From Hamadaea flava (GTDB lineage Bacteria; Actinomycetota; Actinomycetes; Mycobacteriales; Micromonosporaceae), in contig NZ_JAMZDZ010000001.1 in assembly GCF_024172085.1 (NCBI RefSeq), positions 8,618,001 through 8,682,000 on the forward strand: DNA of 64,000 nucleotides, given 5' to 3'. Of this stretch, positions 41,008 to 57,859 are shown piece after piece. The notes beneath the pieces were generated by a model. The model had not been told where the DNA came from, made no database searches, and was given only the letters and a program-made list of their open reading frames with translations. Both the position numbers and the translations under genes were made by a program. The first letter of the stretch is position 1. Every line of letters begins with the position of its first letter.

Positions 41008-41075
41008 GGGCGCAGTCTGGCAGGCCGCGCTCACAGATCGCTGACATCGGGTGTCGCCGCAGTGAGGCCGGTTCG

Positions 41076-41089
41076 TGACGGCCTGACGG
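41076..41089 (+). promoter_or_regulatory. direct TGACGG repeats upstream of precursor genes
   Basis: TGACGG occurs at 41076-41081 and 41084-41089, about 70 bp before the first precursor start. The 8-bp period does not match the 11-bp period usual for SARP binding. The region must hold the precursor promoter, but no clean -35/-10 pair is visible. Confidence 0.25.
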
Positions 41090-41155
41090 TGAACTGAGGA
41101 CGCCTGGAAATCCTGGGCTCCCCCCGATAAGGCGGAACGACACAAGGAGTACGCC

Positions 41156-41350
41156 ATGAACGGTCAGACGGACCTCGACGCCATCGCGCAGGAGATTCTG
41201 GCGCTGGAGTCGGAGACGTTCGCGATCTCGGACTACACCGATGTCACGGAGGCGGTGCTCGCCTCGACGTCGTGTTCGGCGACCACCTCGTGCTGCAGCA
41301 GCACCACCTCGAGCACCAGCTCGGCCTCGTCCACCTCCTGCTGCGGCTGA
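41156..41350 (+). CDS. thiopeptide-type RiPP precursor peptide, copy 1
   Basis: The peptide has 64 residues, with AAGGAG seven bases before ATG. The leader (about 1-36) is acidic and contains LESETFAISDYTDVTEAV, the style of thiopeptide/TOMM leaders. The inferred core (37-64) starts STSCSATTSCC and ends SSTSCCG. It has 13 Ser, 7 Thr and 5 Cys (Cys40, 46, 47, 62, 63), so 25 of 28 residues can be cyclised or dehydrated. Residue 57 is Ala. The second copy follows after 34 bp. The exact cleavage site is inferred. The downstream YcaO, SagB and LanB genes make the assignment strong. Confidence 0.9.
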   Translation: MNGQTDLDAIAQEILALESETFAISDYTDVTEAVLASTSCSATTSCCSSTTSSTSSASSTSCCG

Positions 41351-41384
41351 CCTCAGCTCGCACAGCCACCCCAAGGAGTACGCC

Positions 41385-41579
41385 ATGAACGGTCAGACGG
41401 ACCTCGACGCCATCGCGCAGGAGATTCTGGCGCTGGAGTCGGAGACGTTCGCGATCTCGGACTACACCGATGTCACGGAGGCGGTGCTCGCCTCGACGTC
41501 GTGTTCGGCGACCACCTCGTGCTGCAGCAGCACCACGTCGAGCACGAGCAGCCAGTCCTCGACGTCGTGCTGCGGCTGA
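41385..41579 (+). CDS. thiopeptide-type RiPP precursor peptide, copy 2
   Basis: The 64-residue peptide is identical to copy 1 except Gln instead of Ala at position 57. The first 50 codons, and the 13 bases before ATG that include the AAGGAG site, are identical in DNA to copy 1. Codons 51, 54, 56, 58, 59, 60 and 61 carry only synonymous differences. Both copies should be processed by the same enzymes, giving two congeners. A GC hairpin follows the stop. Confidence 0.9.
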   Translation: MNGQTDLDAIAQEILALESETFAISDYTDVTEAVLASTSCSATTSCCSSTTSSTSSQSSTSCCG

Positions 41580-41595
41580 TTCAGCACGATACGCG

Positions 41596-41629
41596 GTGGC
41601 CCCGCCGGTGACTCCGGTGGCGGCCACCG
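41596..41629 (+). terminator. strong hairpin after precursor genes
   Basis: GGTGG (41596-41600) and CCACC (41625-41629) close a hairpin whose inner arms (CCGCCGG and CCGG-T-GGCGG) extend the stem almost to a short loop. It lies 17 bases after the second precursor. It may end most transcripts so that the abundant precursor mRNA exceeds the enzyme mRNA. Confidence 0.6.
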
Positions 41630-41717
41630 CTCTCCGAACCGGCCGAGCGGACGCGGTCAGCGGGTAGACGGTTCTGCGTACTTGACCGTTGATCACGTTG
41701 TTAAGAGTATGAAAAAC

Positions 41718-41954
41718 ATGAATAGCTCGATCACTGTGCGTGAGGCGGCCCGCAACAGCGACGCCTTTTTCGTGCGGCTGTGGAAGCTACCCGGAAACGG
41801 CGTCGCGAGTGTGGACAAGACCTGTTCGCCTCCTGTCAAGCGCTGTGGCAAGACGATGTCGACGGGTATCTGCGTCCGTTGCTGTGCTGCTTCTGGCCTG
41901 GTCCGAAGCGCCCTGAATGCGGCGTCGCGGCACGACCGAAGAGCGCGGTGGTGA
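41718..41954 (+). CDS. doubtful 78-residue Cys-containing ORF
   Basis: The frame starts MNSSITVREAARNSDAFFVR and later has five cysteines (DKTCSPPVKRCGK, GICVRCCAAS). It could be expressed from the leaderless-type box GAGTAT 7 nt upstream. Codon third positions are less biased than in neighbouring genes, which argues against a real protein. It is listed because of its place inside a RiPP cluster. Confidence 0.2.
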   Translation: MNSSITVREAARNSDAFFVRLWKLPGNGVASVDKTCSPPVKRCGKTMSTGICVRCCAASGLVRSALNAASRHDRRARW

Positions 41955-42105
41955 CAGTGACCGCATGGTTGTGCCAGCGCGGTGCACTGTCCAGTCAGCG
42001 GACCGTGGAAAGACGATTAGCGGTGATCTCCAACGCCTATTCGGGGCGCTGGAGGAATCCAATTTCGGCGAATTGCCGAGGCTTCGGCCCGCGCGGCGGC
42101 CATCG

Positions 42106-43869
42106 ATGATCTTCCGGGTGCTGGGCCCGCTGGCGCTTGCCCATGGACCGGACTCGGTGGTGTTGCCGCCCTCTCGAGTCGCCAGCATGCTCGCGGCCCT
42201 GCTGCTGCGGCCCAACGAGATCGTCCCGGTGCCCTCCCTTCAGGAGGCGATCTGGGGAGACGACCAGCCGGCTGCCGCCAAGTCCGCACTGCAGACCTGC
42301 GCGATGCGGCTGCGCCAACTGTTCGTCCGGCACGCGATCATCGCCTCGGCCATCGAGACCGTGCCCGGTGGCTACCGGTTCTCCGCGACCGAGGAAACAC
42401 TCGACCTGGTCCGCTTCCGGGAGATGGCGTCGGCCGCGCAGGCCGAGCCGCAGTCCGACCGGCAGCTGGTGCTGTTGGAGGGAGCCCTGGCCCTCTGGCG
42501 TGGCCCGTTGCTGGCCAACGTGCCGTCAGTGAGCCTGCATCGCGACGCGGTGCCCCGGCTCAACGAGGAGCGGCTGCGGGTTCTCGAACGGCTTTGCGAG
42601 CTGAAGATCCAGCTCGGCCTGGCACCTTCGGCGCTGGTGCAGCTGTGGGAGGAGACCCGAGCCTATCCGGGTAACGAACGGCTGGCCGAGCTGCTCATCG
42701 AGGCGCTCTACCGGACCGGTCGCCAGCCCGAGGCGCTGGCCGAGCACCGGCGAGTGAAGCGGTTCCTCGCCGAGGAACTAGGCGTGGACTTGGGGCCGCG
42801 GTTACGCCGGCTGGAACTCAGCATCCTCAACGGTGAGGAACGTGGTGACCTGGACAAGTCCGCAGGCGCCGACGCGGCACCGGCCGATCGAGGCCCACGG
42901 GTCGACTCGCCACAGGGTTTCGTCGGTCGCGCGGGCATCGTCGACAGCGTCAGCGCGTACCTGCGCGACGGTGCCGGCGTGGTGGTGCTGACCGGGCTGC
43001 CCGGGGTCGGCAAGACCGCATTGGCCCGGCGGGTCGCCGGCGGGATGGACGACGTGTTCCCGGCGGGGCAGCTGCTGGTGTCCATGCGCGGCGCCGACGC
43101 GACGCCGTTGGACGCCGCCAGACTGGCCGACCGGCTCGCGCGCTGGCCACGCGGCGCCACGACCCAGCGCGGCCTGTTGATCCTCGACGACGTGGACGAC
43201 GTGCCGCAGGTCCTGGCCGGTGCGCACCTCTGGGCACCCGGTGACGCCGTCCTGCTCACCAGCCAGTTCAGCCTGGCCGGGGTGGTCGCCCGATTCGGCG
43301 GGCGGATCGAACGCGTCGGCGGTCTCAGCCCCGCCGAATCGGTGGCGTTGCTGGCCGCGCTCATCGGAGGAGAACGCGCCGATGCCGAGCCAGCCGCGGT
43401 CGCGGCGCTGGCCGAGCTGTGCGGCCATCTACCGCTGGCGTTGCGTGTCGCCGCCGCGCGGCTGATGACCAGGGCGACCGGCGTCGCCGAGTTCGTCGCC
43501 TGGGTACGCGAGAACCCGATCAGCCGGCTGACCCTGCCGGGCGACCCTGACATGGCGCTGCACGGCCGCCTGGAAACCGCGGTGAACCGGCTGCCACCAC
43601 CGTTGGCCGACGCCGTGCTGCGGCTGCACGAGCTGGACCGGCTCGACCCGCGCACGGTGGCCGAGCGGCTGGCGATCACCCCTGACGCCGCCGAGGCGAT
43701 CCTCGACCAGCTCGCCGACGCAAGCCTGCTCGACGCGTACGCCGGTCAATACCGGATGCGTGATCTGTTGCGCCTCTACTCGCGTGGCGCGCTGGACGGA
43801 AGGCGGCCGACCGGCGTCACGACCACCCTTCGGCCGCCGGAACGGAGCTCTGATGAGGAACGTGTTTGA
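42106..43869 (+). CDS. SARP-type regulator with BTAD and NB-ARC domains
   Basis: The protein has 587 residues, with the start placed at ATG 42106 because the OmpR-like winged helix begins there (MIFRVLGPLALAHGPDSVVL). Domains: winged helix (1-93), bacterial transcriptional activation domain (about 100-243), a linker, and an NB-ARC ATPase with P-loop GLPGVGKT (297-304) and LILDDVDDV as Walker B. There is no long TPR sensor at the end. AfsR/SARP proteins activate antibiotic gene clusters, so this is the probable pathway activator. Its 3' end overlaps the start of the leader-binding protein gene. Confidence 0.88.
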   Translation: MIFRVLGPLALAHGPDSVVLPPSRVASMLAALLLRPNEIVPVPSLQEAIWGDDQPAAAKSALQTCAMRLRQLFVRHAIIASAIETVPGGYRFSATEETLDLVRFREMASAAQAEPQSDRQLVLLEGALALWRGPLLANVPSVSLHRDAVPRLNEERLRVLERLCELKIQLGLAPSALVQLWEETRAYPGNERLAELLIEALYRTGRQPEALAEHRRVKRFLAEELGVDLGPRLRRLELSILNGEERGDLDKSAGADAAPADRGPRVDSPQGFVGRAGIVDSVSAYLRDGAGVVVLTGLPGVGKTALARRVAGGMDDVFPAGQLLVSMRGADATPLDAARLADRLARWPRGATTQRGLLILDDVDDVPQVLAGAHLWAPGDAVLLTSQFSLAGVVARFGGRIERVGGLSPAESVALLAALIGGERADAEPAAVAALAELCGHLPLALRVAAARLMTRATGVAEFVAWVRENPISRLTLPGDPDMALHGRLETAVNRLPPPLADAVLRLHELDRLDPRTVAERLAITPDAAEAILDQLADASLLDAYAGQYRMRDLLRLYSRGALDGRRPTGVTTTLRPPERSSDEERV

Positions 43870-45925
43870 GTCGGTCGCCGCCACCCGGCCACGGATCCGC
43901 CGGGACGTGCTGTTCACCGCCGCCTACGACGGCGTGCTGTTCCACAACTCATCGGGCGGCTTCAAAATCAGCGCTGCCAGTGGATACCGACTCGCCACGC
44001 TGATCGTGCCGCTGCTCGACGGGCGTCGAACCGTCGCGGAGATCTGCGCGAAGCTGCCGGACCCGCAACGTGCCATGGTCGGCGAGCTGGTCGGCGCGCT
44101 GCTGCAGCGCGACTTCGCGCGCGACGTCCCAGCCGATGAGGTGGACCCCGCCGAGCTGCTCGGCGCCGCGGTGGCCAAACAGTTCGCCAGCCAGCTCGGC
44201 TACCTCGACCACTATGCCAGCGGTGCGCCGCAGCGCTTCGCCGCCTTCCGCGACAGCACGGCAGCGGTCATCGGCAGCGGCCCGGTCGCGAGCACCTGCG
44301 CGCTGAGCCTGATCCGCAACGGCATGGCTCAGGTCGCCCTCGTCGGCGACAGCGACGGCGCAGCCGAGGCCGAGGCCGCCGAGCTGTCCGCGGGCGGCGT
44401 ACCGGCAGCCGTGGTCGGCATCGACCCCGCAGACGGTGAGCCCACCTGGACCGACCTCAAGGGCGTCGACGTCGTCCTGCTCGCCGACGAGGGCGCCGCG
44501 CGCCGCGCACACGCCCTGTTGGCGACCGGGATCCCAGCGGGCCGCACGGTCGTGCCCATGTGGATGTTCGGTTCGCGGGCGATCATCGGCCCGGCATGCG
44601 GTGCGGGCCGTACCGGGTGCTGGTACTGCGCGATGCTCCGGTTGACGAGCAACGACTCCGGCACGGCGGCGGCCGAGATCTGGCGTGGCATCGCCGTGCC
44701 TGCGACGTCGCCGACCATTACGGGCCCGCAGGGCCCGCCGGCGGCGATGATCGGCAACCTGCTGGCGTTCGAGGCGTTCCGGCTGCTCACCGGCGCGTTG
44801 CCCGCCGAGACCGACGGCAAGGTGATCATCCAGGAACTGGAGTCCCTCGACGTGGTCAGCGAACGACTGCTGCCGCATCCCGCGTGCGTGTACTGCGTCC
44901 AGGAACCGCCGCAGCTCACGCCCGTGCCCCTCGACGTGGCCCCGGCGGATCAGGACGTCGATGCGCAGGCCGCCGAGCTGTCGGCCCGCGACGGGCTCCT
45001 GCAACCCTCGGCTGGGGTGTTCCAGCGTTATCAGGACGAGGAGTGGGAGCAGACACCGGTCAAGATCGGCACAGTCCGGTTCACCGACCCGGCCGGTACG
45101 CCGCGGATGGTCAGCGCATTCGACGTTCATCACCTCGTCGGCGCGCGGACTCGGGCGCTGGCCGCGGCTGCGGTCGCGTACGCCGATCGGTTGACCACGC
45201 GATCTGACGCGGCCCCCGTCATCGGACGTTCGCTGGTGGACGGAACCGCCGTCGAGGTGCCGCGCGCGCTCGTGGAGCCGTTCGGCCCGGCCAACGCCGA
45301 TCGTCAGGTCGAACCCAGCCGAGCCGGAGCTGGAGCCGGGTTCACCGCCGCCGCCGCGATCCGGGACGCGCTCGCCTCGGCGCTCGCGTTCACCGCGCTG
45401 CAGAACGCCATCGCCGGCACGGCACCGCTGCTCGTGCCGCTGGACACCCTCGGCGACGATGCTGAGCTGCGCTTCCTGGTGAGGTCCGCGGCCAACCTGG
45501 ACGTCGCGGTGCAGCTGCTCGACCTTGGCTCGGCGACGCCCGGCGGTGCGTACACGTTGCTTGCCCGCTGCACGCAGGCGCACAACGACGGGAGACTGTG
45601 GACACTCGCGGCCGCGCCGTCCTGGCGAGACGCGGCCGTCCGTGCCTTGTGCGACCTGGTCGGGCAGGTGCAGCTGCGACAGCAGGCCGAGGCGGCGTCG
45701 ATGACCGGCGACGACCCGATCCTCACCGACTTCGACGCCGACACCCTCGTCGTCGACGGCGAGGTGCCGGCGCGGCTCGACGCCCACGGCACCTGGCAGG
45801 CCGTCCTGGACCGGCTGGCGCAGACCGGCGCCGCCGCGGTGGCCGTGCCGCTCGGCGGTGCGGATCTGCCGACCGGCGGCCTGGTCGTGACCCGGGTGGC
45901 GCTGCTGGACAGAGCCCGCGGATGA
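43853..45925 (+). CDS. TOMM leader-peptide-binding protein (Ocin-ThiF type)
   Basis: ATG 43853 follows CGGAGCTC and overlaps the regulator gene by 17 bp; the protein has 690 residues. Residues about 15-95 form a PqqD-like winged helix, the RiPP recognition element that binds leaders. An E1/ThiF-like Rossmann domain follows (AAVIGSGPVAS, 138-147) with a structural zinc site from Cys256, Cys259, Cys345 and Cys348. The C-terminal 280 residues look like a degenerate YcaO-related or dimerisation domain. In thiopeptide pathways such proteins (TbtF type) deliver the precursor to a separate YcaO. Confidence 0.87.
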   Translation: MRNVFESVAATRPRIRRDVLFTAAYDGVLFHNSSGGFKISAASGYRLATLIVPLLDGRRTVAEICAKLPDPQRAMVGELVGALLQRDFARDVPADEVDPAELLGAAVAKQFASQLGYLDHYASGAPQRFAAFRDSTAAVIGSGPVASTCALSLIRNGMAQVALVGDSDGAAEAEAAELSAGGVPAAVVGIDPADGEPTWTDLKGVDVVLLADEGAARRAHALLATGIPAGRTVVPMWMFGSRAIIGPACGAGRTGCWYCAMLRLTSNDSGTAAAEIWRGIAVPATSPTITGPQGPPAAMIGNLLAFEAFRLLTGALPAETDGKVIIQELESLDVVSERLLPHPACVYCVQEPPQLTPVPLDVAPADQDVDAQAAELSARDGLLQPSAGVFQRYQDEEWEQTPVKIGTVRFTDPAGTPRMVSAFDVHHLVGARTRALAAAAVAYADRLTTRSDAAPVIGRSLVDGTAVEVPRALVEPFGPANADRQVEPSRAGAGAGFTAAAAIRDALASALAFTALQNAIAGTAPLLVPLDTLGDDAELRFLVRSAANLDVAVQLLDLGSATPGGAYTLLARCTQAHNDGRLWTLAAAPSWRDAAVRALCDLVGQVQLRQQAEAASMTGDDPILTDFDADTLVVDGEVPARLDAHGTWQAVLDRLAQTGAAAVAVPLGGADLPTGGLVVTRVALLDRARG

Positions 45926-47760
45926 GTTCGCCCGTTCTGGACCACGGCCGCCGGATCATCGCGGCGATGAGCGACCTGCTGCCCGCCGAGGACGCGGATT
46001 GCGCAGTGCACCCACTGGGCCTGCGTGACGAGCGGGCCGACGGGGCGGTGCCGCCGGCCGCGTGGGTGCTGCTCTACGGCAGGCATGCCCTGCTCGCGGG
46101 GCGCACCGGCTGCACCGGCTGCCTGGCCCGCCGATGGCAGGCGGTACGCCCGCCAGAGCTGCGCGAGGCGCTGGAGTCCGGCGGCCAGACGTCGGCCGCC
46201 GGCGACTGGCCGTATGCCACGCCGTTCGTCACCGACGCACTGCGGGCGCTCCGGGCTGCCACGGCCACCACGACCGCCGTCTACGACCTGGACGTCGAGA
46301 CATTGCGAGTCGTCAGCGTGCCGTTGATTCCCGACGCGGACTGCCCGACCTGCGGCGGGGCGCCGCCGGACGCGCCCATCCCGCCTGAGCTGGGATCGAT
46401 ACCCAAAAGCGCGCCGGACTCCTTTCGCAGCCGCGAGGTGGCGAGCTATCCGCTGGACCCGGCGGCTCTGGTCAACCCGGTCTGCGGACCGCTCGGCGCG
46501 GCGCTGTGGCCCGACCTGGCCTCGACCACGACCGCCCCGGTCCACGGGATGTTCCACCCCCGCGCGGCCGACCATCTCCGCGAGATGCTGTTCGGCGGAC
46601 ACGCCGACGGGTACGCCCGCAGCACTCGCCTGGGCCTGCTGGAGGGCTTGGAACGGCACGCCGGCCTGCGGCCCCGGGCACGGCGTACCACCGTCGTGGC
46701 GGCCCTGGACGAACTCGGCGCGGATGCGCTCGACCCACGGGCATGCGGAACCTATGACGACCGGTTCTACGAGCTCAACCCCCACATCAGACGGTTCACC
46801 GCCGACCGGCCGATCCCGTGGGTGTGGGGATGGTCGCTGCGTGACACGCGGCCGGTCCTGGTCCCCGAAGTCGTCGCCTACTACCACTGCGCGCCGCTGG
46901 CCGAGCGATTCGTGCAGGAGAACTCCAGCGGCTGTGCGTCCGGCGGCAGCCTGGTCGAAGCCGTCTACCACGGGCTGATGGAGGCCGTCGAACGCGACGC
47001 GTTCGTGCTGGCCTGGTACACCGCACGCGGCCTGCCCGAGATAGACCCCGCCACCAGCACCCGCGCCCGGACCAGGATCATGGTCGACCGCCTGGCGATG
47101 TACGGCTACCGGGCCCGGTTCTTCGACGCCCGGTGCACCTTCGACATCCCGGTCGTCACCGCGGTCGCCGAACGCGTGGACGGCGGCTTCGGCGCACTGG
47201 CCTTCGGCGGCGGCGCGAGCCTGGATCCGGAGACCGCGATGGCCGCCGCCCTGTGCGAGATCGCGTCGGACGCACCCCTGGCCGGTGCCCGCGCCATCAC
47301 CGACGAGCCCCGGCTGCGGGAGATGGTCGACGACTACGACAAAGTGTGGCGGTTGCACGACCACCCGCTCCTGTACGCGCTGCCGCAGATGCGCCGGCAC
47401 GCCGCGTTCCTGCTCGACGGCGGCGACCCGCCGCGGCCGATGCGCGAGATCTACGCCGATCCGAGGCCGGCCCCGCCGCTGGCCGATGACCTGCACGAGG
47501 ACCTCGAGCGGTGTGTGCGGGCCGTCACCGGCCACGGCTTCGACGTGATCGTCGTCGACCAGACCACGCCCGAGCAGCGCCCTCTCGGCCTGCACACCGC
47601 CTGCGTGCTGGTGCCCGGACTGCTGCCGATCGACTTCGGCTGGAGCCGCCAGCGCGCCCTGACCATGCCCCGCCTGCGCACCGCCCATCGGCTCGCCGGG
47701 CTGACCGAGCACGACCTCAGCGACGACGACATCCACCCCGTCCCGCACCCCTACCCGTGA
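45922..47760 (+). CDS. YcaO cyclodehydratase 1
   Basis: ATG 45922 overlaps the previous stop by 4 bp, and the protein has 612 residues. An N-terminal region binds zinc through Cys64/Cys67 and Cys141/Cys144. The YcaO domain follows with ATP-binding segments LGLLEGLERH and GLMEAVERDAF, and the protein ends in the proline-rich PVPHPYP typical of azoline-forming YcaO enzymes. It should use ATP to cyclise Cys, Ser or Thr of the core into thiazoline or oxazoline, guided by the leader-binding protein next door. A second complete homologue lies at the end of the cluster. Confidence 0.9.
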   Translation: MSSPVLDHGRRIIAAMSDLLPAEDADCAVHPLGLRDERADGAVPPAAWVLLYGRHALLAGRTGCTGCLARRWQAVRPPELREALESGGQTSAAGDWPYATPFVTDALRALRAATATTTAVYDLDVETLRVVSVPLIPDADCPTCGGAPPDAPIPPELGSIPKSAPDSFRSREVASYPLDPAALVNPVCGPLGAALWPDLASTTTAPVHGMFHPRAADHLREMLFGGHADGYARSTRLGLLEGLERHAGLRPRARRTTVVAALDELGADALDPRACGTYDDRFYELNPHIRRFTADRPIPWVWGWSLRDTRPVLVPEVVAYYHCAPLAERFVQENSSGCASGGSLVEAVYHGLMEAVERDAFVLAWYTARGLPEIDPATSTRARTRIMVDRLAMYGYRARFFDARCTFDIPVVTAVAERVDGGFGALAFGGGASLDPETAMAAALCEIASDAPLAGARAITDEPRLREMVDDYDKVWRLHDHPLLYALPQMRRHAAFLLDGGDPPRPMREIYADPRPAPPLADDLHEDLERCVRAVTGHGFDVIVVDQTTPEQRPLGLHTACVLVPGLLPIDFGWSRQRALTMPRLRTAHRLAGLTEHDLSDDDIHPVPHPYP

Positions 47761-47769
47761 GGTGAGGCG

Positions 47770-49365
47770 ATGACCACCAGCCACGACGGTTACGCATACC
47801 AGTACGCGACCATGGTCCTGCAACGAAACCGCGTACCCATGGAGCCGGTCGGGTTCGAGCCGAACTGGCCCGACAAGCCGAGGCCGACCAAGCACTACCC
47901 GGGCGCCCTGGCCATTCCGCTACCCGATGCGCCTCCGCCCGCCTCCGCCACCGTCGACGCCGGCCTCGATCCGGATCCGGCGGACGGCCGGTTCACCCTG
48001 CCGGTGCTGGGCGCGATGTTGCGCGACTCGTACGGTCTGCTCGGTCGCCGCCTGGCGATCCAGGCCAACACCGACGTGCACGGCTACCCGTGGTACGCAC
48101 GCGCCAACTGGCACCGGGGCACCGCGTCCGGCGGCGGGCTCTACCCGTGCAGCATCTATTGGGTCGCCGGTCCGGGCGCCGGCCCCTGTCCCGGCATCTA
48201 CCACTATGGCTGCCGGCCGCACGCCATGCAGCGGCTGCTCGCCGGCGACGTCACCCCGGCGGTGCGGGCAGCCCTGGGCGACTCGACCGACGCCACCCAG
48301 TTCCTCGTCGTGGGGGTCAAGTACTGGGCGAACGCGTTCAAATACAACAGCTTCGCGTACCACGCGGTGTCGATGGACGTCGGGACGCTACTGCAGACCT
48401 GGCGGATGTGGGCCGCCAGCGACGGCCGGCGCATCGAACCACGGTTCTGGTTCGACCAGGCCGCCCTCGGCCGCCTGCTCGGCCTGCCGGCCGACGAGGA
48501 AGGACTGTTCGCCGTGGTGCCGCTGACCTGGGCGCCCACCCGTGGCGGCACGATCCGGCCTGCTGCGGCGGTGCCCGGCACGGTCGCGGTGCACCGGCGT
48601 GACCAGGAGAAATCTCGGGTGGTGCACAGCTTCGAGGCGACCGAGCGTCTGCACCGCGAGACCGCGCTGGCCGCTCCGGACCGGCCCGTTGCAGGGGCGC
48701 TGGCCGCCGCGGCGGCCAGCGCAGCACCCGATGGCGACCGCGTTCCGCTGCCTCCGCCGAGCCCGCTGAACACCCCGATCCGTGCCGCGCTACGTCGGCG
48801 CCGCAGCAGCTTCGGCCGGTTCGACGCCACCGTGCCGATGACGCAAGCGGATCTCGCCGCCCTGCTCACCGCCGCGTCGGCCGGGCAGCCGCCGACCGAG
48901 TCGGCGGCCAAGGGTGACGGGCGGCTCGCCAAGTTCTACCTGTTCGCCAACCACGTGCAGGGCCTGCCGGCGGGCAGCTACGAGTACGACCCGGCGGGCC
49001 ACGGGCTGCGGCCGGTGCAACTGGGGCCGCAAGGCGCGTTCCTGCAGCGCAACTACTTCCTGCCGAACTACAACCTGGAGCAGGCGGCGGTCGTGCTGGT
49101 GCCCACGATCCGCGCCGGCGCGGTCCTCGACGAGGTCGGCGCACGGGGCTACAACGTCGTCAACGCCACGATCGGCGCGATCGCGCAGACCTGCTACACC
49201 GCAGCGGCGTCGCTGAATCTCGGCTGCGGCGTCGCGCTCGGCTTCGACGGCGTGTCCTACCTGGAGCAACTCGGCTTGACCGGCACGGACGAGATGCCCC
49301 TGCTCATCATGCTCGCCGGGCACGAGCGGGCGCAGGGCAGCGACTACCGGTACGAGCTGCGGTGA
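47770..49365 (+). CDS. SagB-type azoline dehydrogenase with two nitroreductase-like domains
   Basis: The protein has 531 residues starting 9 bp after the YcaO stop. Two nitroreductase-like halves are visible. The first contains HRGTASGGGLYPCSIYWV, the arginine/serine FMN-binding turn of SagB proteins; the second contains RRRRSSFGRFDATVPMTQAD and NATIGAIAQTCYTAAASL. Many actinobacterial SagB homologues have this doubled form. It should oxidise azolines to aromatic azoles with FMN. Its presence predicts thiazoles or oxazoles rather than azolines in the product. Confidence 0.87.
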   Translation: MTTSHDGYAYQYATMVLQRNRVPMEPVGFEPNWPDKPRPTKHYPGALAIPLPDAPPPASATVDAGLDPDPADGRFTLPVLGAMLRDSYGLLGRRLAIQANTDVHGYPWYARANWHRGTASGGGLYPCSIYWVAGPGAGPCPGIYHYGCRPHAMQRLLAGDVTPAVRAALGDSTDATQFLVVGVKYWANAFKYNSFAYHAVSMDVGTLLQTWRMWAASDGRRIEPRFWFDQAALGRLLGLPADEEGLFAVVPLTWAPTRGGTIRPAAAVPGTVAVHRRDQEKSRVVHSFEATERLHRETALAAPDRPVAGALAAAAASAAPDGDRVPLPPPSPLNTPIRAALRRRRSSFGRFDATVPMTQADLAALLTAASAGQPPTESAAKGDGRLAKFYLFANHVQGLPAGSYEYDPAGHGLRPVQLGPQGAFLQRNYFLPNYNLEQAAVVLVPTIRAGAVLDEVGARGYNVVNATIGAIAQTCYTAAASLNLGCGVALGFDGVSYLEQLGLTGTDEMPLLIMLAGHERAQGSDYRYELR

Positions 49366-49372
49366 GGCGGCG

Positions 49373-52087
49373 ATGACGATCCTGCACGACACCACCGCGC
49401 TGGCCGTGCCGCCGGCCCGCCAGCTCGGCCGGTATTTCGCGGTCCGCGTCGGCGGCCTGCCCTACGGCACCGTGTCGGTCCTGGCCTGCCCGCGTGCGGC
49501 TGGGCACGCGCAGGCACTGCTCGATCTGGAGGCCGAGCTGTCCGACCTGGCCGGGCCGCTCGGGGACCTGTTGCACCAGATCATCGGCGCTGACGACGAC
49601 AACCTGTCCCGGCGGCGGCTACTGGCACTGCGCCGGCAGGTGTTCCACGGGACCATGCCCACGGACCCGCAGGCCGCGTTGGCCGCTGTCGCCGCCCATC
49701 CCGACGCGATCGGCCCCGTGCGTGAGTGGCTGGCCCGGCGCGAGCAAGCCGACGTCCAACTGCGTGAGCTGGACACCGTGCTGGCGGACGAGGTGGCTGC
49801 CGCGCGCGACGGACTGTGGCGGCTGTCCGGCGACCCGCGGTTACGGGCGGGCATCCAGATCGCCTCGCCCGCGCTGGACGAGCAGTTGGTGGCGTTGGCC
49901 GGCCGCGACGGTGCGCCGCCGCCGGCCAAGAAGCTGCGCCGGGTCGAACGCTCGATCGTGTCCTACCTCTACCGGGCCGCCTGCAAGACCAGCCCGTTCA
50001 GCTCGTTCACCGCGGTCGGGGCGGGCGTCTTCGACGACACGGCGACTGGGCCTGAGCCTTCGATCGCGACGTCGCCGCGGTCGTACGCCCGGCTCAACGT
50101 CGTGGCGCTGGCCAGGATCGTGGACGCGGTCTGCGCCGATCCGGGCCGCCGGGGCGACTTGCCGGTGGTGCTGAGCCCCGGCCTCCGGCAGGATCCCGGC
50201 CGCGTGCGCTACGTCCGGCATTGGGTCACCACCGGCGACGACAGCGCCGCGGTCAGCTTCGACTCCATTCAGGACGGCCTGTTCTACCTCCGCCGGAGCG
50301 GCCTGCTCGACGCGCTGACCGCGTTGTTGACCGACGGCCGCGCGGTGCGCTGCGCCGAACTGTCCGCCTGGCTGCAGGAACGGACCGCGGCCGGGCCGCA
50401 GCGCTGCGAGGAATACCTCTCGATCCTGTTGCGCCTGGGCATTCTGCAGCTCGCCGGGCTCACCATCGACGTGCACGCGCCAGACCCGCTCACCCAGCTC
50501 CGCGACTTCCTCGCCGAGCTCCGCGAACCGTGGGCCGTCGACCTGGCCCATCGGCTCGCCGAGCCGATCGCGTTGCTGACCGCGTTCCGAGACGAGGATC
50601 TGGCCGGGCGTCGCCTGACCCTGCGCCGCCTGCGGGAGGCACTGCGCGAAGTCCAGGCCGAGCTGGGTACGCAGGACGCGTCGTTGCCGCAGTCCCTCGT
50701 CTACGAGGACTGCCGGGTTCCCGGCGAGGCGGCGATGCCGGCCGGCTCCTGGCAGCGGCTGGCCGCGACGGACCTCGCCGCCGTCGAGGCCGTGCTGCCC
50801 ACGTTCGACCTGACGCTGCCGCACCGGATCACCTTCCACGGGTTCTTCCTGGCCCGCTACGGCGCCGGTGGCCGCTGCGACGATCTGCTGCGGCTGGTCG
50901 AGGACTTCCACGAGGACTTGTACGACCAGTACGTGTCGAGCACCGCGGAGCTGCGGCCGTTCACCGAGGACGGGACGTACCGGCCGGAGGAGAACTGGCT
51001 CGGCCGGCCGGAGCTGGACCGGCTGGACCAGGCCCGGAAGGACCTGGTGGCGTACGTGCGGGGGGCTGTGCAGGCCGACGCCGGGGCGGCGGAGATCCGG
51101 CTGGACCCGGCCCGGCTGCACACGATCGGCGGCGGCCTGCGGGACCTGTTCGGCGGATTCCGGCCGCAGTCCCATCTCGTCCAGCCGGCTCAGGGCCCCG
51201 CCGGCCCGCTGGTGGTGCTGAACCAGTCGCTGGGCGGGCTGTCGTTCCCGTTCAGCCGGTTCACCCACTGCTTCGACGACGCCACACCGCCGCTGTCGCC
51301 GCGCCTGCGTACGGCCGCCACGGAAGCGGCCCCGCCCGGCGCGGTGTTCGCCGAGGTGACCGGTGGCCCGGCGACCACCAACCTGAACCTGCACGCGCAG
51401 TTGACCGACTACGTCGTCGTCTGTCCGGGAGACAGCAGCGTCGTCCCGCCGGCGGCCCGCCTGCCCCTCGACGACCTCTACCTGTGCCACGACATCGGCG
51501 CCGACCGGGTCGTGCTGCGCTCGCGTCGGCTCGACCGGGAGGTGATCCCGGTGTACCTGGGCTATCTCGTCCCGATGGCGTTGCCGCAGCTGCACCGCAC
51601 ACTTCTGCTGCTGTCGCCGACGTCGCTGGCCCCGCTGGACATCTGGCGCGGGGTGCCCGCGACCCCGGATGCCGACGGCGTCACCCGGCGTCCGCGAGTC
51701 CGCGCCGGACAGGTGGTGCTCAGCCGCCGCAGCTGGTCGGTGGACGCGTCCGCACTGCCGGTACGCCGTGACGGCGACACCGACGCCGACTGGTTCCTGG
51801 GCTGGCAGCGGTGGCGGCGCGCACACGGCCTGCCGGCCGAGTTGTTCGCGACCGTCCATCCGGCCGGGGGCCGAGCCGGGCAGCGCCCCAAGCCGCAGTA
51901 CGTCGACTGCTCGGCCTATCTGTCGCTGGTCGCCCTGGAAGCGCTGATCGCCGGCGGTGCCGGCCGTGTCGTGTTCCGCGAGATGCTGCCGGGCCGCGAC
52001 GACCTCCACGGCATCGGCGGGCACGTCACCGAGTACGTCATCGAGACCTTCCCCATCGCCCCCACCTCCGGAGCCGACCGTGACTGA
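49373..52087 (+). CDS. LanB-type dehydratase, glutamylation domain
   Basis: ATG 49373 lies 7 bp after the SagB stop with GAGGCG before it; the protein has 904 residues. It matches the N-terminal lantibiotic dehydratase domain: RRVERSIVSYLYRAACKTSP followed by FSSFTAVGAG, and a late segment SRFTHCFDDATPPL leading into FAEVTGGPATTNLNLH. In split LanB systems this part transfers glutamate from glutamyl-tRNA to Ser/Thr of the core. The elimination domain is encoded separately by the next gene, overlapping by 8 bp. This matches thiopeptide (TbtB) and goadsporin (GodF) enzymes. Confidence 0.9.
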   Translation: MTILHDTTALAVPPARQLGRYFAVRVGGLPYGTVSVLACPRAAGHAQALLDLEAELSDLAGPLGDLLHQIIGADDDNLSRRRLLALRRQVFHGTMPTDPQAALAAVAAHPDAIGPVREWLARREQADVQLRELDTVLADEVAAARDGLWRLSGDPRLRAGIQIASPALDEQLVALAGRDGAPPPAKKLRRVERSIVSYLYRAACKTSPFSSFTAVGAGVFDDTATGPEPSIATSPRSYARLNVVALARIVDAVCADPGRRGDLPVVLSPGLRQDPGRVRYVRHWVTTGDDSAAVSFDSIQDGLFYLRRSGLLDALTALLTDGRAVRCAELSAWLQERTAAGPQRCEEYLSILLRLGILQLAGLTIDVHAPDPLTQLRDFLAELREPWAVDLAHRLAEPIALLTAFRDEDLAGRRLTLRRLREALREVQAELGTQDASLPQSLVYEDCRVPGEAAMPAGSWQRLAATDLAAVEAVLPTFDLTLPHRITFHGFFLARYGAGGRCDDLLRLVEDFHEDLYDQYVSSTAELRPFTEDGTYRPEENWLGRPELDRLDQARKDLVAYVRGAVQADAGAAEIRLDPARLHTIGGGLRDLFGGFRPQSHLVQPAQGPAGPLVVLNQSLGGLSFPFSRFTHCFDDATPPLSPRLRTAATEAAPPGAVFAEVTGGPATTNLNLHAQLTDYVVVCPGDSSVVPPAARLPLDDLYLCHDIGADRVVLRSRRLDREVIPVYLGYLVPMALPQLHRTLLLLSPTSLAPLDIWRGVPATPDADGVTRRPRVRAGQVVLSRRSWSVDASALPVRRDGDTDADWFLGWQRWRRAHGLPAELFATVHPAGGRAGQRPKPQYVDCSAYLSLVALEALIAGGAGRVVFREMLPGRDDLHGIGGHVTEYVIETFPIAPTSGADRD

Positions 52088-53123
52088 ACAACCCTCCGCC
52101 GATGCCGGGTCGTGGCTCGGCATCCACATCTTCTACGGCGCCAACGCCCGCCCCATGGTGGTCGACTGCATCCGGCCGCTGGTCGACGAGCTGACGGCGC
52201 AGGGCCTGCTGGATCGCTACTTCTTTCTGAACTACTGGATGGAGGGGCCGCATGTGCGCTTGCGGCTCAAACCCAGCTCAGCCGCGGCCGAGCCCGCAGT
52301 ACGCGCTGCCGCCGACGCGGCCGTGCAGCGATTCCTGACCGCCCGGCCGGCCTTGTACGAAATGGACGGTGGCTTCCGCGGGGAGCTGCACGACATGCTC
52401 TTCAAGCTGGAGTATCCGCAGGGCGGGCCGGAGACGCTGCTGGGCGCGGACGGGCGGCCCGCCATGCAGCCCAACAACTCGTTCGCCTACCGCCCCTATG
52501 AGCCCGAGTACGGCAAGTACGGCGGCGCGAGCGGTGTGGAGCTGGCCGAGTGGCACTTCCAGTACTCCAGCGACGTGGTCATCGACATGGTCGCCACGAT
52601 GAACCTGCATCTGCGGCCGGTGACGCTGGGCTCCGCGGCCCAGCTGATGGTCGTCACCGCGGCCACGTTCCTGCCTGGCCGGGAAGACCTGGTCGCGTTC
52701 TTCGACTCCTACCACGACTTCTGGCATCAGGCGTTCGGCGGCACCGGTTTCGTCGACGACATCGACTACGAGCGCATGTACGACCGGATGTCCGCCGAGT
52801 TGGGGCGTCGCTTCGAACCCACCCTTGCCGCATTGGAATGTGGTCAGCTGCACCGCCTGCCGGAGTTCCTGCGCGGCTGGGCGGTGCATGTCGCTCAGCT
52901 GCGCGACCGGGTGGCGGAGCTGGCGGTGGCAGGCGAGCTGACGTTCGCCTTCCCCGAGGGCGCGGCACCGGTCACCGTCACCGACCCGCACGCGGCGAAG
53001 GTCCGGCTGTTGTCGCCGTACGTGCACATGACCAACAACCGGCTGTACGTGACGCTGCGCGATGAGGCGTACCTGGCGTACCTGGTCGGCAGGTCGCTGC
53101 GGGAGACGGCGGCGGCACGGTGA
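52080..53123 (+). CDS. SpaB_C-type glutamate elimination protein
   Basis: GTG 52080 (preceded by GGAG) overlaps the LanB stop; the protein has 347 residues. Conserved features of the elimination fold are WMEGPHVRLRLK (Arg60, Arg62), PYEPEYGKYGG (139-149) and the histidine in YVHMTNNRL (His316). These resemble the elimination domain of NisB-type enzymes and TbtC/GodG rather than the pyridine synthases TbtD/TclM, which have lost such residues. It should remove glutamate to leave dehydroalanine or dehydrobutyrine. It is the only SpaB_C-like gene in the cluster. Confidence 0.85.
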   Translation: MTEQPSADAGSWLGIHIFYGANARPMVVDCIRPLVDELTAQGLLDRYFFLNYWMEGPHVRLRLKPSSAAAEPAVRAAADAAVQRFLTARPALYEMDGGFRGELHDMLFKLEYPQGGPETLLGADGRPAMQPNNSFAYRPYEPEYGKYGGASGVELAEWHFQYSSDVVIDMVATMNLHLRPVTLGSAAQLMVVTAATFLPGREDLVAFFDSYHDFWHQAFGGTGFVDDIDYERMYDRMSAELGRRFEPTLAALECGQLHRLPEFLRGWAVHVAQLRDRVAELAVAGELTFAFPEGAAPVTVTDPHAAKVRLLSPYVHMTNNRLYVTLRDEAYLAYLVGRSLRETAAAR

Positions 53124-54274
53124 CCGCGACGGAGCTGCCCAAGACCCAGCAGCCGCGCGTACGACCGGACTTGCTGATCTCGCGGGAGCTGGGCCGCGGA
53201 CCGGACCGGATCCACCTGCTGAAGGCGCCCGGCGGCGCGACGTTCGAGGTGTCGCCCAAGGAGCGGTTCGTGATCAGCCGGCTGAACGGGCTGCTGAGCA
53301 TGGCGGAGATCGGCGACCAGTACGCGGCGCGGTTCGCCCGGCGGCTCGGCCCGGCCCAATGGTCGCAGCTGTTGTGGGCGCTGGGCCAGCGAGAGCTGCT
53401 GGACACCGGCGGCCCACCAGTGGCGCCGATCAGGCAGCGGCCCGCCCTGCGGCGGCTGGCCGAGGTGAGCAGGTGGATCTTCACCGGTCCAACCGGCGTG
53501 GTCCTGGCCGCCGGGCTGCTGGCGATGTACGCCTGCCTGGCACCCGCGGTCCCGCGACTGTGGCGCGATGCGACCGGAGCGTTCGGCGACTGGCGGTCGA
53601 TGCTGATGATGGGCGCGTTGACCTACCTCAGCGCGATGCTGCACGAGTTGGCGCATGCCGTCGCGGCAACCCGGTTCGGCTGCGCCGCGGTGCGGATCAA
53701 CCTGGTGGCGTTGAGCTGCAAGGTCGAGGACTATCCGTTCCTGCCTTCGCGCGTACAGCAGGTCGTCGTGGCTGCGGCCGGGGGTGTGCTCAACAGCGTT
53801 CTGGTGGTGCCGTTCGCAGTGGCGTGGCCGCTGCTGCCGCCGGGTTCGGCCGGACGCTCTTTCGCTGCCGCGGCGGTGCTCTGCGGCGCGGTGCAAAGCC
53901 TGGTCAACTTCGTGCCGGTGGCTCCGCTGGACGGCTACAAGATGCTCAGCCACCTGCTCGGCCTGGTGTCGCTCGGCCCGGAGAGCCGCCGCTACCTGTG
54001 GTCGCGTCCGCGTAAGTGGCTTACCGGGCGGGGCCTGCCCTACCCCCGATCCGCCCGGATCGCGCTCGGGCTGTACGGCCTGGCCTGGCATACGGCGACG
54101 GCAGCAGCCGCCACCCTCGTCGTGTACGCCGCCGGGAGCCTGCTGGCGCCGTTCCTCGGCCCGGCCGGGTACGCCGGGTCGGCGGCGGTCGTCGTGCTCA
54201 CGCTCACCCTGTGGCTCACCGCCCGGCCGCCGCGCCCGGTGCGAGCCGGATCGACCCAACAACCAGTTATGTGA
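53120..54274 (+). CDS. M50-like membrane metalloprotease with PqqD-like N-domain
   Basis: GTG 53120 overlaps the previous stop by 4 bp, and the protein has 384 residues. The first 95 residues resemble a PqqD-type winged helix (FEVSPKERFVISRLNGLLSM). Four to five transmembrane helices follow. The zinc site is HELAH (175-179), with Asp271 in PVAPLDGYK as probable third ligand, as in site-2 proteases. A cytoplasmic leader-recognition domain fused to an intramembrane protease makes this the best candidate to remove the leader. It may instead be a YydH-like immunity or maturation factor. Confidence 0.8.
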   Translation: MTATELPKTQQPRVRPDLLISRELGRGPDRIHLLKAPGGATFEVSPKERFVISRLNGLLSMAEIGDQYAARFARRLGPAQWSQLLWALGQRELLDTGGPPVAPIRQRPALRRLAEVSRWIFTGPTGVVLAAGLLAMYACLAPAVPRLWRDATGAFGDWRSMLMMGALTYLSAMLHELAHAVAATRFGCAAVRINLVALSCKVEDYPFLPSRVQQVVVAAAGGVLNSVLVVPFAVAWPLLPPGSAGRSFAAAAVLCGAVQSLVNFVPVAPLDGYKMLSHLLGLVSLGPESRRYLWSRPRKWLTGRGLPYPRSARIALGLYGLAWHTATAAAATLVVYAAGSLLAPFLGPAGYAGSAAVVVLTLTLWLTARPPRPVRAGSTQQPVM

Positions 54275-54285
54275 GAGGCGAGGAG

Positions 54286-55194
54286 ATGCCAGCAACCGCA
54301 GAACCAGCGATCGAGGTCGTCGGGCTCGGCAAGGCGTACGGGAAGGTGCGTGCCGTCGACGACGTGTCGCTCACCGTCCCACGCGGGGAGTTCATCGGCC
54401 TGCTCGGGCCCAACGGCGCGGGAAAGACCACCCTCATCGAGATCGTCGAAGGGCTTCGGGTGCCGGATACCGGCACCGTGACCGTACTGGGTCACCGCCC
54501 ACACCCGCGCAACCTGGCGCTGCTGCCGCTCATCGGCGTGCAGACGCAGCAGTCGGCGTTCTTTCCGCATCTGACCGCCCGCGAACATGTCGAGACGGTC
54601 GCCGCGTTCTACGGCCGCGGCCGCGCCGACGCCGAGCGGGCGTTGGCACAGGTGGGCCTGACGGATTCGGCCGACGCACGGGTGGCCAGGGTGTCCGGTG
54701 GCCAACGCCAGCGGCTGGCCGTCGCCTCGGCGCTGGTGCACCAGCCTGAAGTGATCTTCCTGGACGAGCCGACCGGCGCGCTGGATCCGCAGGCGCGCCG
54801 CGACCTGTGGTCGATGCTGCGCGAGCTGAAGGGCGAGGGCAAGACCATCGTCTACACGACCCACCATCTGGAGGAGGCCGAGGCGCTGTGCGACCGGGTG
54901 GCCATCCTGCACCAGGGGAGGGTCGTGGCGCTGGACTCGCCGCGTGACCTGATCAATCGGGCCGAGCTGGGCAGCCAGGTACTGGTGCCGGCTGGGCGGA
55001 TCGCACCGGAGCTGGCCGGTCGGCTCGACGGGGTGGACGCGGTCACCGTCGCCGACGGCACCGTGACCCTGCACACCCAGCAGCTGACCCGGGTGCTGGC
55101 GGCGCTGGGCGCCAGCACCGAACTGGACGGTGTGCAGACCCGGGCGGCCACGCTCGAGGACGTCTACCTGGACCTGATCGGAGCGCAATCATGA
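54286..55194 (+). CDS. ABC exporter ATP-binding protein of the RiPP cluster
   Basis: The protein has 302 residues from ATG 54286. Walker A is GPNGAGKT (41-48), the signature VSGGQRQRL begins at 136, Walker B is IFLDEPT (157-163) and the H-loop is YTTHHLEE. The last 80 residues form the small C-terminal domain common in ABC-2 antibiotic exporters (DrrA-like). It pairs with the permease that overlaps its stop by 4 bp. Likely roles are export of the mature peptide and self-protection. Confidence 0.9.
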   Translation: MPATAEPAIEVVGLGKAYGKVRAVDDVSLTVPRGEFIGLLGPNGAGKTTLIEIVEGLRVPDTGTVTVLGHRPHPRNLALLPLIGVQTQQSAFFPHLTAREHVETVAAFYGRGRADAERALAQVGLTDSADARVARVSGGQRQRLAVASALVHQPEVIFLDEPTGALDPQARRDLWSMLRELKGEGKTIVYTTHHLEEAEALCDRVAILHQGRVVALDSPRDLINRAELGSQVLVPAGRIAPELAGRLDGVDAVTVADGTVTLHTQQLTRVLAALGASTELDGVQTRAATLEDVYLDLIGAQS

Positions 55195-55946
55195 CCGTCT
55201 TCGCCGCCCTGACCCGGGCCTCGATCAAGGCGAACACCCGCGACGCGGTGACGATCTTCTTCACCTTCGCGTTCCCCCTGGTGTTCCTCGTCATCTTCGG
55301 CCTCATCTTCCGTGGCCAGAAGGTCGTGGAGACCGGCAACGGTTATATCGACTTCATCGCCCCCGGTCTGCTGTCGTGGGGCCTGGCCAACGCGGCGTCG
55401 TTCGGGGTCTCGTTCACGTTGATGCAGTGGCGCCGCGACGACCTGCTGCGCCTGATCCGGCTCACCCCGGCCCGGCTGTCCGAGGTGGTGCTGTCGCGAC
55501 TGGTCATCGCCGCCATCATCGGCCTGGCTCAGTGTCTGCTGTTCATCGGTGTGGCGACCATCCCGCTGTTCGGCATGCACGTCTCGGGTCGCTGGCCGCT
55601 CGCGTTGCCGATGATGCTGCTGGGGGTCACCACCTTCCTGGGGCTCGGCCTGATCATCGGGGCGGTCTCGAACACCCCGGAGGCGGTCAGCGCCATCGGC
55701 AACTGCGTCGTCATCCCCATGGCGTTCCTGTCCGGCTCGTTCATCCCCGTCGAGCTGATGCCCGAATGGCTGCGCACCGTGTCGAACGCGATGCCCATGC
55801 GCCATCTGCTCGACGGCCTGGTCTACGCGCTGGCCGGGGCCGGCGAGGCGCGGGACTACGGCATCGCCTGCCTGGTCCTGGCCGGGTTCACGATCGTGTT
55901 CACCGGCATCGGACTGCGGATGTTCCGGTGGAGCAACAACGTATGA
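55191..55946 (+). CDS. ABC-2 type permease of the RiPP cluster
   Basis: The 251-residue membrane protein has six helices (FFTFAFPLVFLVIFGLIF, LVIAAIIGLAQCLLFIGV, MMLLGVTTFLGLGLIIGAV, CVVIPMAFLSGSFIPVELMP and others). The segment FLSGSFIPVELMPEWLRTVS is characteristic of DrrB/ABC-2 permeases. Its start overlaps the ATPase stop, and its stop overlaps the second YcaO gene, so it is an integral part of the operon. Together with the ATPase it should move the finished peptide out of the cell. Confidence 0.9.
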   Translation: MTVFAALTRASIKANTRDAVTIFFTFAFPLVFLVIFGLIFRGQKVVETGNGYIDFIAPGLLSWGLANAASFGVSFTLMQWRRDDLLRLIRLTPARLSEVVLSRLVIAAIIGLAQCLLFIGVATIPLFGMHVSGRWPLALPMMLLGVTTFLGLGLIIGAVSNTPEAVSAIGNCVVIPMAFLSGSFIPVELMPEWLRTVSNAMPMRHLLDGLVYALAGAGEARDYGIACLVLAGFTIVFTGIGLRMFRWSNNV

Positions 55947-57859
55947 GCGGCGCGAAGGCGACCGTGGCCGGGCCCGGCGCACCCCTGGGTGCGGCCGTGG
56001 CCCGGCTCCAGCTCGCACTCGACGAGCGCTGGTCGGCCCGCCCGCCGACGGACATGGCCGCCCCGGCGGTGGTGGCGCTGGGAGCCGGCGACCTCAGACA
56101 CGGAGCCGACCCGGCCCGCCGCCACGCCAACGTGCATCTGTCCGCCGGCGCGGTGTACCTCGGGCCGTGGGGCGACGGCGGCCAGACTCCGGCGTGCGGG
56201 CATTGCTTCGGCATCCGCTGGCAGCGGCTGCGCGGACGGACCGAACGCGATGCGCTGGAGATCGGCACCGGCGGAACATCGGTCGGCGACTGGCCTGACC
56301 TGATGCCGTACCACGTGGATTCGGTGTGGCAGCTGTTCACCATGCTCGCTGGGGGAGCGCCGACCGTCGGCGCGTACCTCGATCCTGACAGCGACGGGCT
56401 GAGCCGGGTGACCGCGCTGGATTTGGACAGCCTGCGCACTGTCACCGCGCCGCTGCTGGCCGAGCCCCTGTGCCCCGGCTGCGGGACCGCGCCGGCCGAC
56501 GGCCCGCCCGCGTTCGAACCGGTGCGGCCTCGCCCCAAGCCGGACCCCACCCGCTACCGGTTGCACGAGGTACGCGACTACCGCCTGCCCACCGGTGCGC
56601 TGGTCAACCCGGTGTGCGGGGCCATCGGAGCCGGGGCCTTGATGGACCCGACCATGCCGACCACCGCCGCGGTGACCGGTGGTGTCTTCGTCCGCGGCTA
56701 CGCCGGGTTGCTCGACGTCGCCTGGAGCGGGCACGCCAACTCCTACGCGGACAGCCTGCGCCTGGCGTACCTGGAAGGGCTGGAGCGCTACGCCGGGACA
56801 CACCGGCGACGCTTCGGCCCGCCGCTGGTCGCAGCGTACGCCGACGTCGTCGACCAGGCACTGGATCCGGTCTCCTGCGGGGTCTACACCGCACAGACCT
56901 ACGACACCGATCCGCTCGTGCAGCGCTTCGATCCGAGCCGGCCGATTCCGTGGGTCTGGGGCCACGTCGTGCGTACCGGCGCGCCGATCCTGGTGCCCCG
57001 GCGGTTCTGCTACTACAGCTCCGGCGCGCCCGGGGACAACTTCGTGCTGTCGTCCTCCAGCGGCTGCGCCACCGGCGGCTGTCTGGAGGAGGCCGTCCTC
57101 TACGGGCTGCTGGAGCTCATCGAACGGGACGCGTTCGTGCTCGGCTGGTACGCCGGGAGCCGCCCGCCGCGTATCGATCTCGACTCGTGCGCCAGCACGC
57201 CGATCCGCACCATGGTCGACCGTGGCAGGCTGTCCGGCTACGACGTGTTGGCCTTCGACAGCCGGACGGACCTCACCGTGCCGGTGGTGACGACGCTGGC
57301 GGTACGCCGCGACGGCGGCCCCGGTCTGCTGGCGTTCGCGGCAGGGGCGCACCTTTCCCCGGAACGGGCGGTCGCCGCTGCCCTGTGCGAAACGCTGACC
57401 TACATTCCGGTGAAGGCGGTCACCACCCGGCGCAGGCGCGCCGAACTGGAAGCCATGGCCGAGGACTATTCGCTGGTCCAGACCGTGCACGACCACGCCG
57501 ACCTGTTCGGGTTGCCGCGTATGCGCGAGCACGCCGAGGACTATGTGGCCGAACGCCCGGCGCTGCCGATGGCCGAGTGCTACGGACCGCCCGCGGCGGC
57601 CGCCCCCGATCTGAGCCAGGACCTGCAGCGCGTGCTCGACGAGCTGTTCGCCCGAGGACTCGAGGTGATCGTCGTCGACCAGACCACCCCCGAGCAACTG
57701 GCCATGGGCCTGCGCACGGTGTGCACCATCGTGCCGGGCCTGCTGCCGATCGACTTCGGCTGGCGACGCCAGCGCGCCCTCACCATGCCCCGGCTGGGCG
57801 CGTACATCGAGGCTTTGGGCGGGACCGGACCCCGGCTGGTGCCCCATCCGTTTCCATAG
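55943..57859 (+). CDS. YcaO cyclodehydratase 2
   Basis: ATG 55943 overlaps the permease stop by 4 bp; the protein has 638 residues. It has the same plan as YcaO 1: zinc pairs Cys85/Cys88 and Cys177/Cys180, ATP-site segments LAYLEGLERY and GLLELIERDAF, and a proline-rich end LVPHPFP. The key residues appear intact, so it is unlikely to be inactive. Two azoline-forming YcaO enzymes in one cluster may divide the work, for example Cys versus Ser/Thr, or different core positions. That division is inference. Confidence 0.9.
   Translation: MSGAKATVAGPGAPLGAAVARLQLALDERWSARPPTDMAAPAVVALGAGDLRHGADPARRHANVHLSAGAVYLGPWGDGGQTPACGHCFGIRWQRLRGRTERDALEIGTGGTSVGDWPDLMPYHVDSVWQLFTMLAGGAPTVGAYLDPDSDGLSRVTALDLDSLRTVTAPLLAEPLCPGCGTAPADGPPAFEPVRPRPKPDPTRYRLHEVRDYRLPTGALVNPVCGAIGAGALMDPTMPTTAAVTGGVFVRGYAGLLDVAWSGHANSYADSLRLAYLEGLERYAGTHRRRFGPPLVAAYADVVDQALDPVSCGVYTAQTYDTDPLVQRFDPSRPIPWVWGHVVRTGAPILVPRRFCYYSSGAPGDNFVLSSSSGCATGGCLEEAVLYGLLELIERDAFVLGWYAGSRPPRIDLDSCASTPIRTMVDRGRLSGYDVLAFDSRTDLTVPVVTTLAVRRDGGPGLLAFAAGAHLSPERAVAAALCETLTYIPVKAVTTRRRRAELEAMAEDYSLVQTVHDHADLFGLPRMREHAEDYVAERPALPMAECYGPPAAAAPDLSQDLQRVLDELFARGLEVIVVDQTTPEQLAMGLRTVCTIVPGLLPIDFGWRRQRALTMPRLGAYIEALGGTGPRLVPHPFP

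Follow-up and report, generated by a model that had tools for sequence, protein, structure and literature searches.

The window analysed here is a 64,000-nucleotide stretch of the Hamadaea flava genome (positions 8,618,001-8,682,000 of a single-contig genome of 8.86 Mb), and the system of interest within it is a cluster encoding two precursor peptides, a regulator, an F protein, two YcaO proteins, a SagB-type dehydrogenase, a split LanB (LanB_N and a stand-alone SpaB_C protein), an M50 metalloprotease and an ABC exporter (Table 1). Judged from these genes and their relatives, the cluster probably directs the synthesis of a ribosomally synthesized and post-translationally modified peptide (RiPP), with a thiopeptide-style precursor converted to a linear product bearing azoles and dehydroalanines (Dha).

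The cluster is intact, and all of the genes named in the original prediction, a reading of these letters made before any database search, are present, open and in the same orientation. Its gene families hold, with profile matches for the SARP regulator, both YcaO proteins, SagB, LanB_N, SpaB_C, M50 and the ABC pair, and with the F-protein model scoring below its cutoff. Its count of thirteen co-oriented genes was right in orientation and too high by one in number, as 12 same-strand genes occupy 41156-57859 and the 13th lies immediately outside. The unassigned region that it had placed among them was not seen: with the chosen starts, neighboring genes overlap or lie at most 34 nt apart, the exception being a 526-nt gap that separates precursor 2 from the SARP gene (start taken as 42106). 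A scan of 40900-42200 for promoters and terminators found none. The two YcaO proteins score 266 and 263 bits with the YcaO family model, and LanB_N matches the solved structures 6ec7 (E 4.8e-35) and 9jhq, a goadsporin protein (E 8.9e-15), which we take to be TbtB and GodF, respectively.

Table 1. Predicted genes of the cluster and its right edge, in window coordinates.
Feature	Position	Strand	Evidence and remarks
Precursor peptide 1, 64 aa	41156..41350	+	Predicted core ~last 26 aa, 41270-41347; AAGGAG upstream
Precursor peptide 2, 64 aa	41385..41579	+	Predicted core 41499-41576, A to Q relative to precursor 1
SARP-family regulator, 587 aa, start inferred	42106..43869	+	BTAD 117.5 bits on longer open reading frame 41917-43869; frame checked
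F protein (Ocin-ThiF-like putative leader binder)	43853..45925	+	TIGR03693 86 bits, cutoff 562; TIGR03882 50 bits, over cutoff
YcaO cyclodehydratase 1 with fused C-protein domain, C-terminus PHPYP	45922..47760	+	TIGR03604 298 bits; TIGR03882 79 bits
SagB-type azoline dehydrogenase	47770..49365	+	TIGR03605 122 bits, over cutoff
LanB N-terminal glutamylation protein (TbtB/GodF-like)	49373..52087	+	PF04738 (Lant_dehydr_N) 156 bits
Stand-alone SpaB_C protein, predicted glutamate-elimination type	52080..53123	+	PF14028 (Lant_dehydr_C) 141 bits; R62, E143, Y147, H316
M50 metalloprotease, RRE-like N-terminal domain, proposed leader peptidase	53120..54274	+	PF02163 27.8 bits, cutoff 27.2; HELAH
ABC transporter ATPase, DrrA-like	54286..55194	+	PF00005 111 bits; TIGR01188 236 bits, below cutoff 312
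ABC-2 permease	55191..55946	+	PF01061 102 bits
YcaO cyclodehydratase 2 with fused C-protein domain, C-terminus PHPFP	55943..57859	+	TIGR03604 308 bits; TIGR03882 75 bits
Membrane-type protein, cluster membership uncertain	57883..58416	+	No Pfam or NCBIfam match

The SpaB_C protein and leader removal

No pyridine ring is expected in the product, because the SpaB_C protein keeps the residues of glutamate elimination and no TbtD-type protein was found in the genome. Counting from the GTG at 52080, residues R62, E143, Y147 and H316 are all kept in 21/21 members of the cluster's family that were compared (21 of 64 family rows); among TbtC proteins, R62, E143 and H316 occur in 11/11 and Y147 in 10/11, whereas none of the four is present in any of 13 true pyridine synthases (TbtD). 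All 13 of the latter instead carry Tyr at the H316 position, the site of substitution in PbtD variants titled Y293F and F293A. Checking for His or Tyr at PbtD position 293 offers a simple way to tell elimination-type SpaB_C proteins from those that form pyridines. The original prediction had cited Arg60 and His316 as elimination residues; its numbering was correct and H316 is diagnostic, while R60 is present in 13/13 pyridine synthases too and hence is not.

The same division was seen at the level of whole proteins. A hidden Markov model (HMM) built from the family scores TbtC above TbtD in 11/11 pairs, the cluster protein reaches about 105 bits against the 325-bit cutoff of the TbtD model NF045556, and a tree of 63 loci, a quick search that returned long-branch warnings, places the family, TbtC and TbtD in three separate clades (SH-aLRT 99/99/100). 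The cluster protein was rejected as a pyridine synthase on its residues and on the tree. A search for a TbtD homolog elsewhere in the genome, which had been proposed as a check, found none; across the genome-wide searches only the cluster protein matches the TbtD model. SpaB_C itself occurs at three places in the genome, two of them at 3.97 Mb, where one lies within a LanB that is nearest to MibB among solved structures. At 3.97 Mb (L002, L003, L083) this LanB lies beside a 304-aa SpaB_C protein in which Ile replaces the elimination His, and the locus is probably a class I lanthipeptide cluster whose SpaB_C has been repurposed.

Thiopeptide leaders are ejected by the pyridine synthase, as described in PMC7210931 (lactazole) and PMC10885120. 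The M50 profile, which was built from the family and speaks for this kind of M50 only, matches 63 of the 67 family loci, with HExxH in 63/63; it matches 0/14 thiopeptide loci that were selected for having TbtD (one of which, L213, covers only 4 kb), and no hydrophobic HExxH stretch was seen in these either. Reciprocally, only two of the 67, L077 and L078, contain a TbtD-type protein by an HMM built from TbtD. Both lack M50, and their TbtD-type protein adjoins LanB_N, carrying Tyr in place of H316 and Ala in place of E143 while retaining R62. Two further loci, L051 (at a contig end) and L082, have neither protein, and these counts describe related loci rather than independent events. Additionally, the first ~90 residues of the M50 protein align to the N-terminal domain of the F protein (hhalign probability 90, pairwise E 1.5e-6), compared with probabilities below 3 for five other domains. 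Because 63/67 family loci but 0/14 thiopeptide loci have an M50 protein with this N-terminus, which resembles a RiPP recognition element (RRE), the enzyme is probably an RRE-guided protease that removes the leader which a pyridine synthase would eject. Combined, the residues relative to 13 TbtD and 11 TbtC proteins, the tree, the genome searches and the M50 distribution support two proposals of the original prediction, that the cluster has no pyridine synthase and that its product would be a linear peptide with azoles and dehydroamino acids, made behind a thiopeptide-style leader.

The exceptional loci L077 and L078, together with L223, form a separate observation: a Tyr-type, cyclase-like SpaB_C protein stands beside LanB_N, M50 is missing, the precursors are quite different, and one open reading frame matches both the F-protein and SagB profiles.

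Precursor cores, the two YcaO proteins and alternative readings

The two precursors are identical but for one residue and score just below the 30-bit cutoff of the thiazolylpeptide precursor model NF033400 (26.7 and 26.8 bits) and under the 25-bit cutoff of a second such model, TIGR03892 (23.3 and 20.4 bits). Leaders of the two-YcaO relatives mostly share L-E-[ST]-E-T-F-x-I-[SA]-D-Y. The predicted window core (26 aa, 5 Cys, many Ser, no Ile) is a longer form of the core of these relatives, for which a near-invariant version, [A/G/S]TTST[C/T]SSTTSTTSCSA, was found in many loci of the bacterial family and, outside that family but within its order, in L201. Close forms occur in L079-L081 (another genus of the same class) and L202, and the cores of L043, L052 and L055 diverge more.

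Five distinct window-type cores were analysed as triads, with seven distinct shorter-type cores compared as well. The first position of six triads is Ser, invariant in the five window-type cores with a codon that varies in four triads; the second position interchanges S, T and C in four triads, and the third is T, C, A, Q or N. Because Ser is near-invariant at the first position and S, T and C swap at the second, the pattern suggests Dha-azole-X triads. This reading agrees with goadsporin, in which Dha formation is described as depending on azoles (PMC5303826), and with the tripeptide pattern given in PMC11583998 for nostatin, with very similar ones for phazolicin, goadsporin and the spongiicolazolicins.

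The two cluster proteins are the only YcaO matches in the genome, both contain the TIGR03882 C-protein domain, and they share the motif SxxLxxLEGLER, which presumably acts in ATP binding; patterns written for another YcaO motif and for a LanB motif found no match and were set aside. Across the family, Cys makes up 0.10-0.20 of the S/T/C in the last 22 precursor residues of 32 two-YcaO loci versus 0.23-0.36 in 24 one-YcaO loci, so that the two groups do not overlap; the threshold of 0.22 applied in the tree-based pair test was set after the values were seen. The count covers 56 of the 63 family loci: L077 and L078 were left out for their TbtD-type protein and other precursors and were kept in the pair test, L008 was dropped as a duplicate of L085, one antisense reading frame of L074 was removed, and L051, L082, L087, L092 and L100 contributed no precursor; L007, on a contig that stops short of YcaO2, was scored as two-YcaO (31 versus 24 loci without it). 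L201-L204, outside this count, agree by eye. The simplest reading of the Cys-poor cores in two-YcaO loci is that YcaO2 would serve Ser and Thr.

In the pathway proposed from these assignments, the F protein would hold the leader, the two C-D-fused YcaO proteins would cyclise Cys, Ser and Thr, and SagB would oxidise the rings. LanB_N would glutamylate Ser and the SpaB_C protein would eliminate glutamate to give Dha, mostly at Ser preceding an azole; the M50 protease with its RRE-like domain would cut the leader, and the ABC transporter would export the product. Several observations weigh against parts of this scheme. The predicted SpaB_C fold (model pLDDT 89) is nearest to TbtD. Core residues 1-6 and 10 fall outside the triad register, Ala stands at a triad-first position in one of the seven shorter-type cores, and the register was picked by eye after the alignment was seen. 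For the YcaO proteins, one change in their number is enough to explain the tree, which leaves just one independent pair (sign test p 1), and L077 and L078 break the separation, having one YcaO yet Cys shares of 0.08 and 0.17. The link between two YcaO proteins and Cys-poor cores was therefore rejected as proof.

The alternative that survives best, while still unlikely, is that YcaO2 forms no azolines and instead serves as a scaffold or carries out another backbone reaction (thioamide or amidine formation, or peptide hydrolysis). Second YcaO proteins have other roles in bottromycin biosynthesis. Such roles are likewise described for YcaO-TfuA systems in PMC8120280, and MusD is described as hydrolysing a peptide bond (PMC10885120); YcaO2, however, resembles YcaO1 in its fused C domain, its PHPFP terminus and its SxxLxxLEGLER motif, and TfuA had no match among the cluster proteins scanned. 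Later cyclisation of the peptide by thioether formation between Cys and Dha, which would give a lanthionine-like instead of a linear product, appears improbable: a core with 5 Cys and many Ser could offer unmodified Cys for addition to Dha, but Cys swaps with Ser and Thr at azole-type positions and no LanC-type cyclase was matched among the cluster proteins scanned. Least probable of all is a bifunctional SpaB_C protein that performs both elimination and [4+2] cycloaddition to yield a true thiopeptide, given that 21/21 members keep His where PbtD has Y293, along with the remaining elimination residues, that the 14 TbtD-selected loci lack M50, and that 65 of 67 family loci lack a TbtD-type protein.

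Distribution and comparison with known systems

Relatives of the SpaB_C protein (E <= 1e-30) were found in 59 of 354 genomes of the bacterial family, about one in six, and in 5 of 396 genomes sampled from the phylum, with the window genome counted in both; the LanB_N query matched 31 of 397 genomes of the order (E <= 1e-25). With surroundings covered up to 20 kb, the full order ThiF-YcaO1-SagB-LanB_N-SpaB_C-M50-ABC-permease-YcaO2 was present in 31 of 65 loci (a set that includes L083, from outside the family, and L008, a duplicate of L085), plus L201 and L202. The 63 tree loci comprise 33 with two YcaO proteins, 27 with one and 3 unclassed at contig ends. On plasmids, the two best of 18 records were from Streptomyces sp. 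NBC_00316 and Actinomyces oris. The latter, from an oral strain (L043), holds a relative of the two-YcaO kind, whose four precursors lie in tandem and are annotated as bacteriocins of the thiazolylpeptide type.

The closest precedents are goadsporin and the uncharacterised coryneazolisins, and the predicted product type, with azoles and Dha in the chain, is goadsporin-like. Goadsporin shares main-chain azoles with Dha next to them, a YcaO protein, a dehydrogenase and a split LanB; its described cluster differs by a peptidase-ABC exporter and an N-acetyltransferase, neither family being found among the cluster proteins scanned here, whereas the window cluster has an F protein, two YcaO proteins, an M50 protease and an ABC exporter (PMC5303826). 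The coryneazolisins, as described by Cox, Doroghazi and Mitchell in 2015 (PMC4603692), likewise have two YcaO (D) proteins and lanthipeptide-like dehydratases with no [4+2] enzyme, and are predicted to be non-macrocyclic. In the coryneazolisins one of the D proteins stands alone while the other is fused, and the core runs 10 C/S/T, Ile and 5-7 C/S/T; here, both YcaO proteins are fused and the 26-aa core lacks Ile. This comparison is by description only and does not extend to function, as the coryneazolisins are uncharacterised. From both precedents the window cluster is set apart by its F protein, two fused YcaO proteins, RRE-like M50 protease and repeated core.

Thiopeptides of the thiomuracin/lactazole type share the acidic leader type, F protein, YcaO, SagB and split dehydratase; they differ in that the window cluster lacks a TbtD-type pyridine synthase and has a dedicated M50 protease. 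Spongiicolazolicins A and B (Streptomyces sp. CWH03) are azole peptides of 28-29 residues (PMC8838263, PMC11583998) with a pattern described as very similar to triads of Dha or dehydrobutyrine, heterocycle and residue (PMC11583998); likened through these peptide descriptions, their cluster could turn out to be closely related, perhaps belonging to the one-YcaO branch. The dehydrazoles/carnazolamide also show Ser dehydration before azoles, with a DUF4135 dehydratase in place of the split LanB (PMC10676384); Pfam scans of the cluster proteins gave no DUF4135 match. For the gene set of the window, no published product was found in the open-access literature, subscription papers being mostly outside the search. 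The claim that this exact combination is undescribed holds only with qualification, as two YcaO proteins with lanthipeptide-like dehydratases and no [4+2] enzyme were already described for the coryneazolisins.

These findings point to a class of products, apparently undescribed, that is common in one actinomycete family and reaches some of its neighbors. More tentatively, a widespread actinomycete class may have rewired thiopeptide machinery, with an RRE-guided M50 protease removing the leader where the pyridine synthase is absent (while L077 and L078, which lack M50, still have a cyclase of the Tyr type), a second fused YcaO dedicated to Ser/Thr oxazoles, a Dha-azole-X repeat, and a near-invariant core that would imply a conserved target or signal. 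With this system, two questions become directly testable: how thiopeptide-like precursors lose their leaders, and why there are two cyclodehydratases.

Elsewhere in the window, a 2-phosphosulfolactate phosphatase-like gene (58451-59191, + strand) directly beyond the cluster likely marks its right border. Upstream, a single reading frame of 3,552 aa (21539-32197, + strand) that combines RHS repeats and laminin-G-like domains with a pretoxin HINT domain at its C-terminus resembles a polymorphic secreted protein, and AT skew is raised across 26-32 kb.

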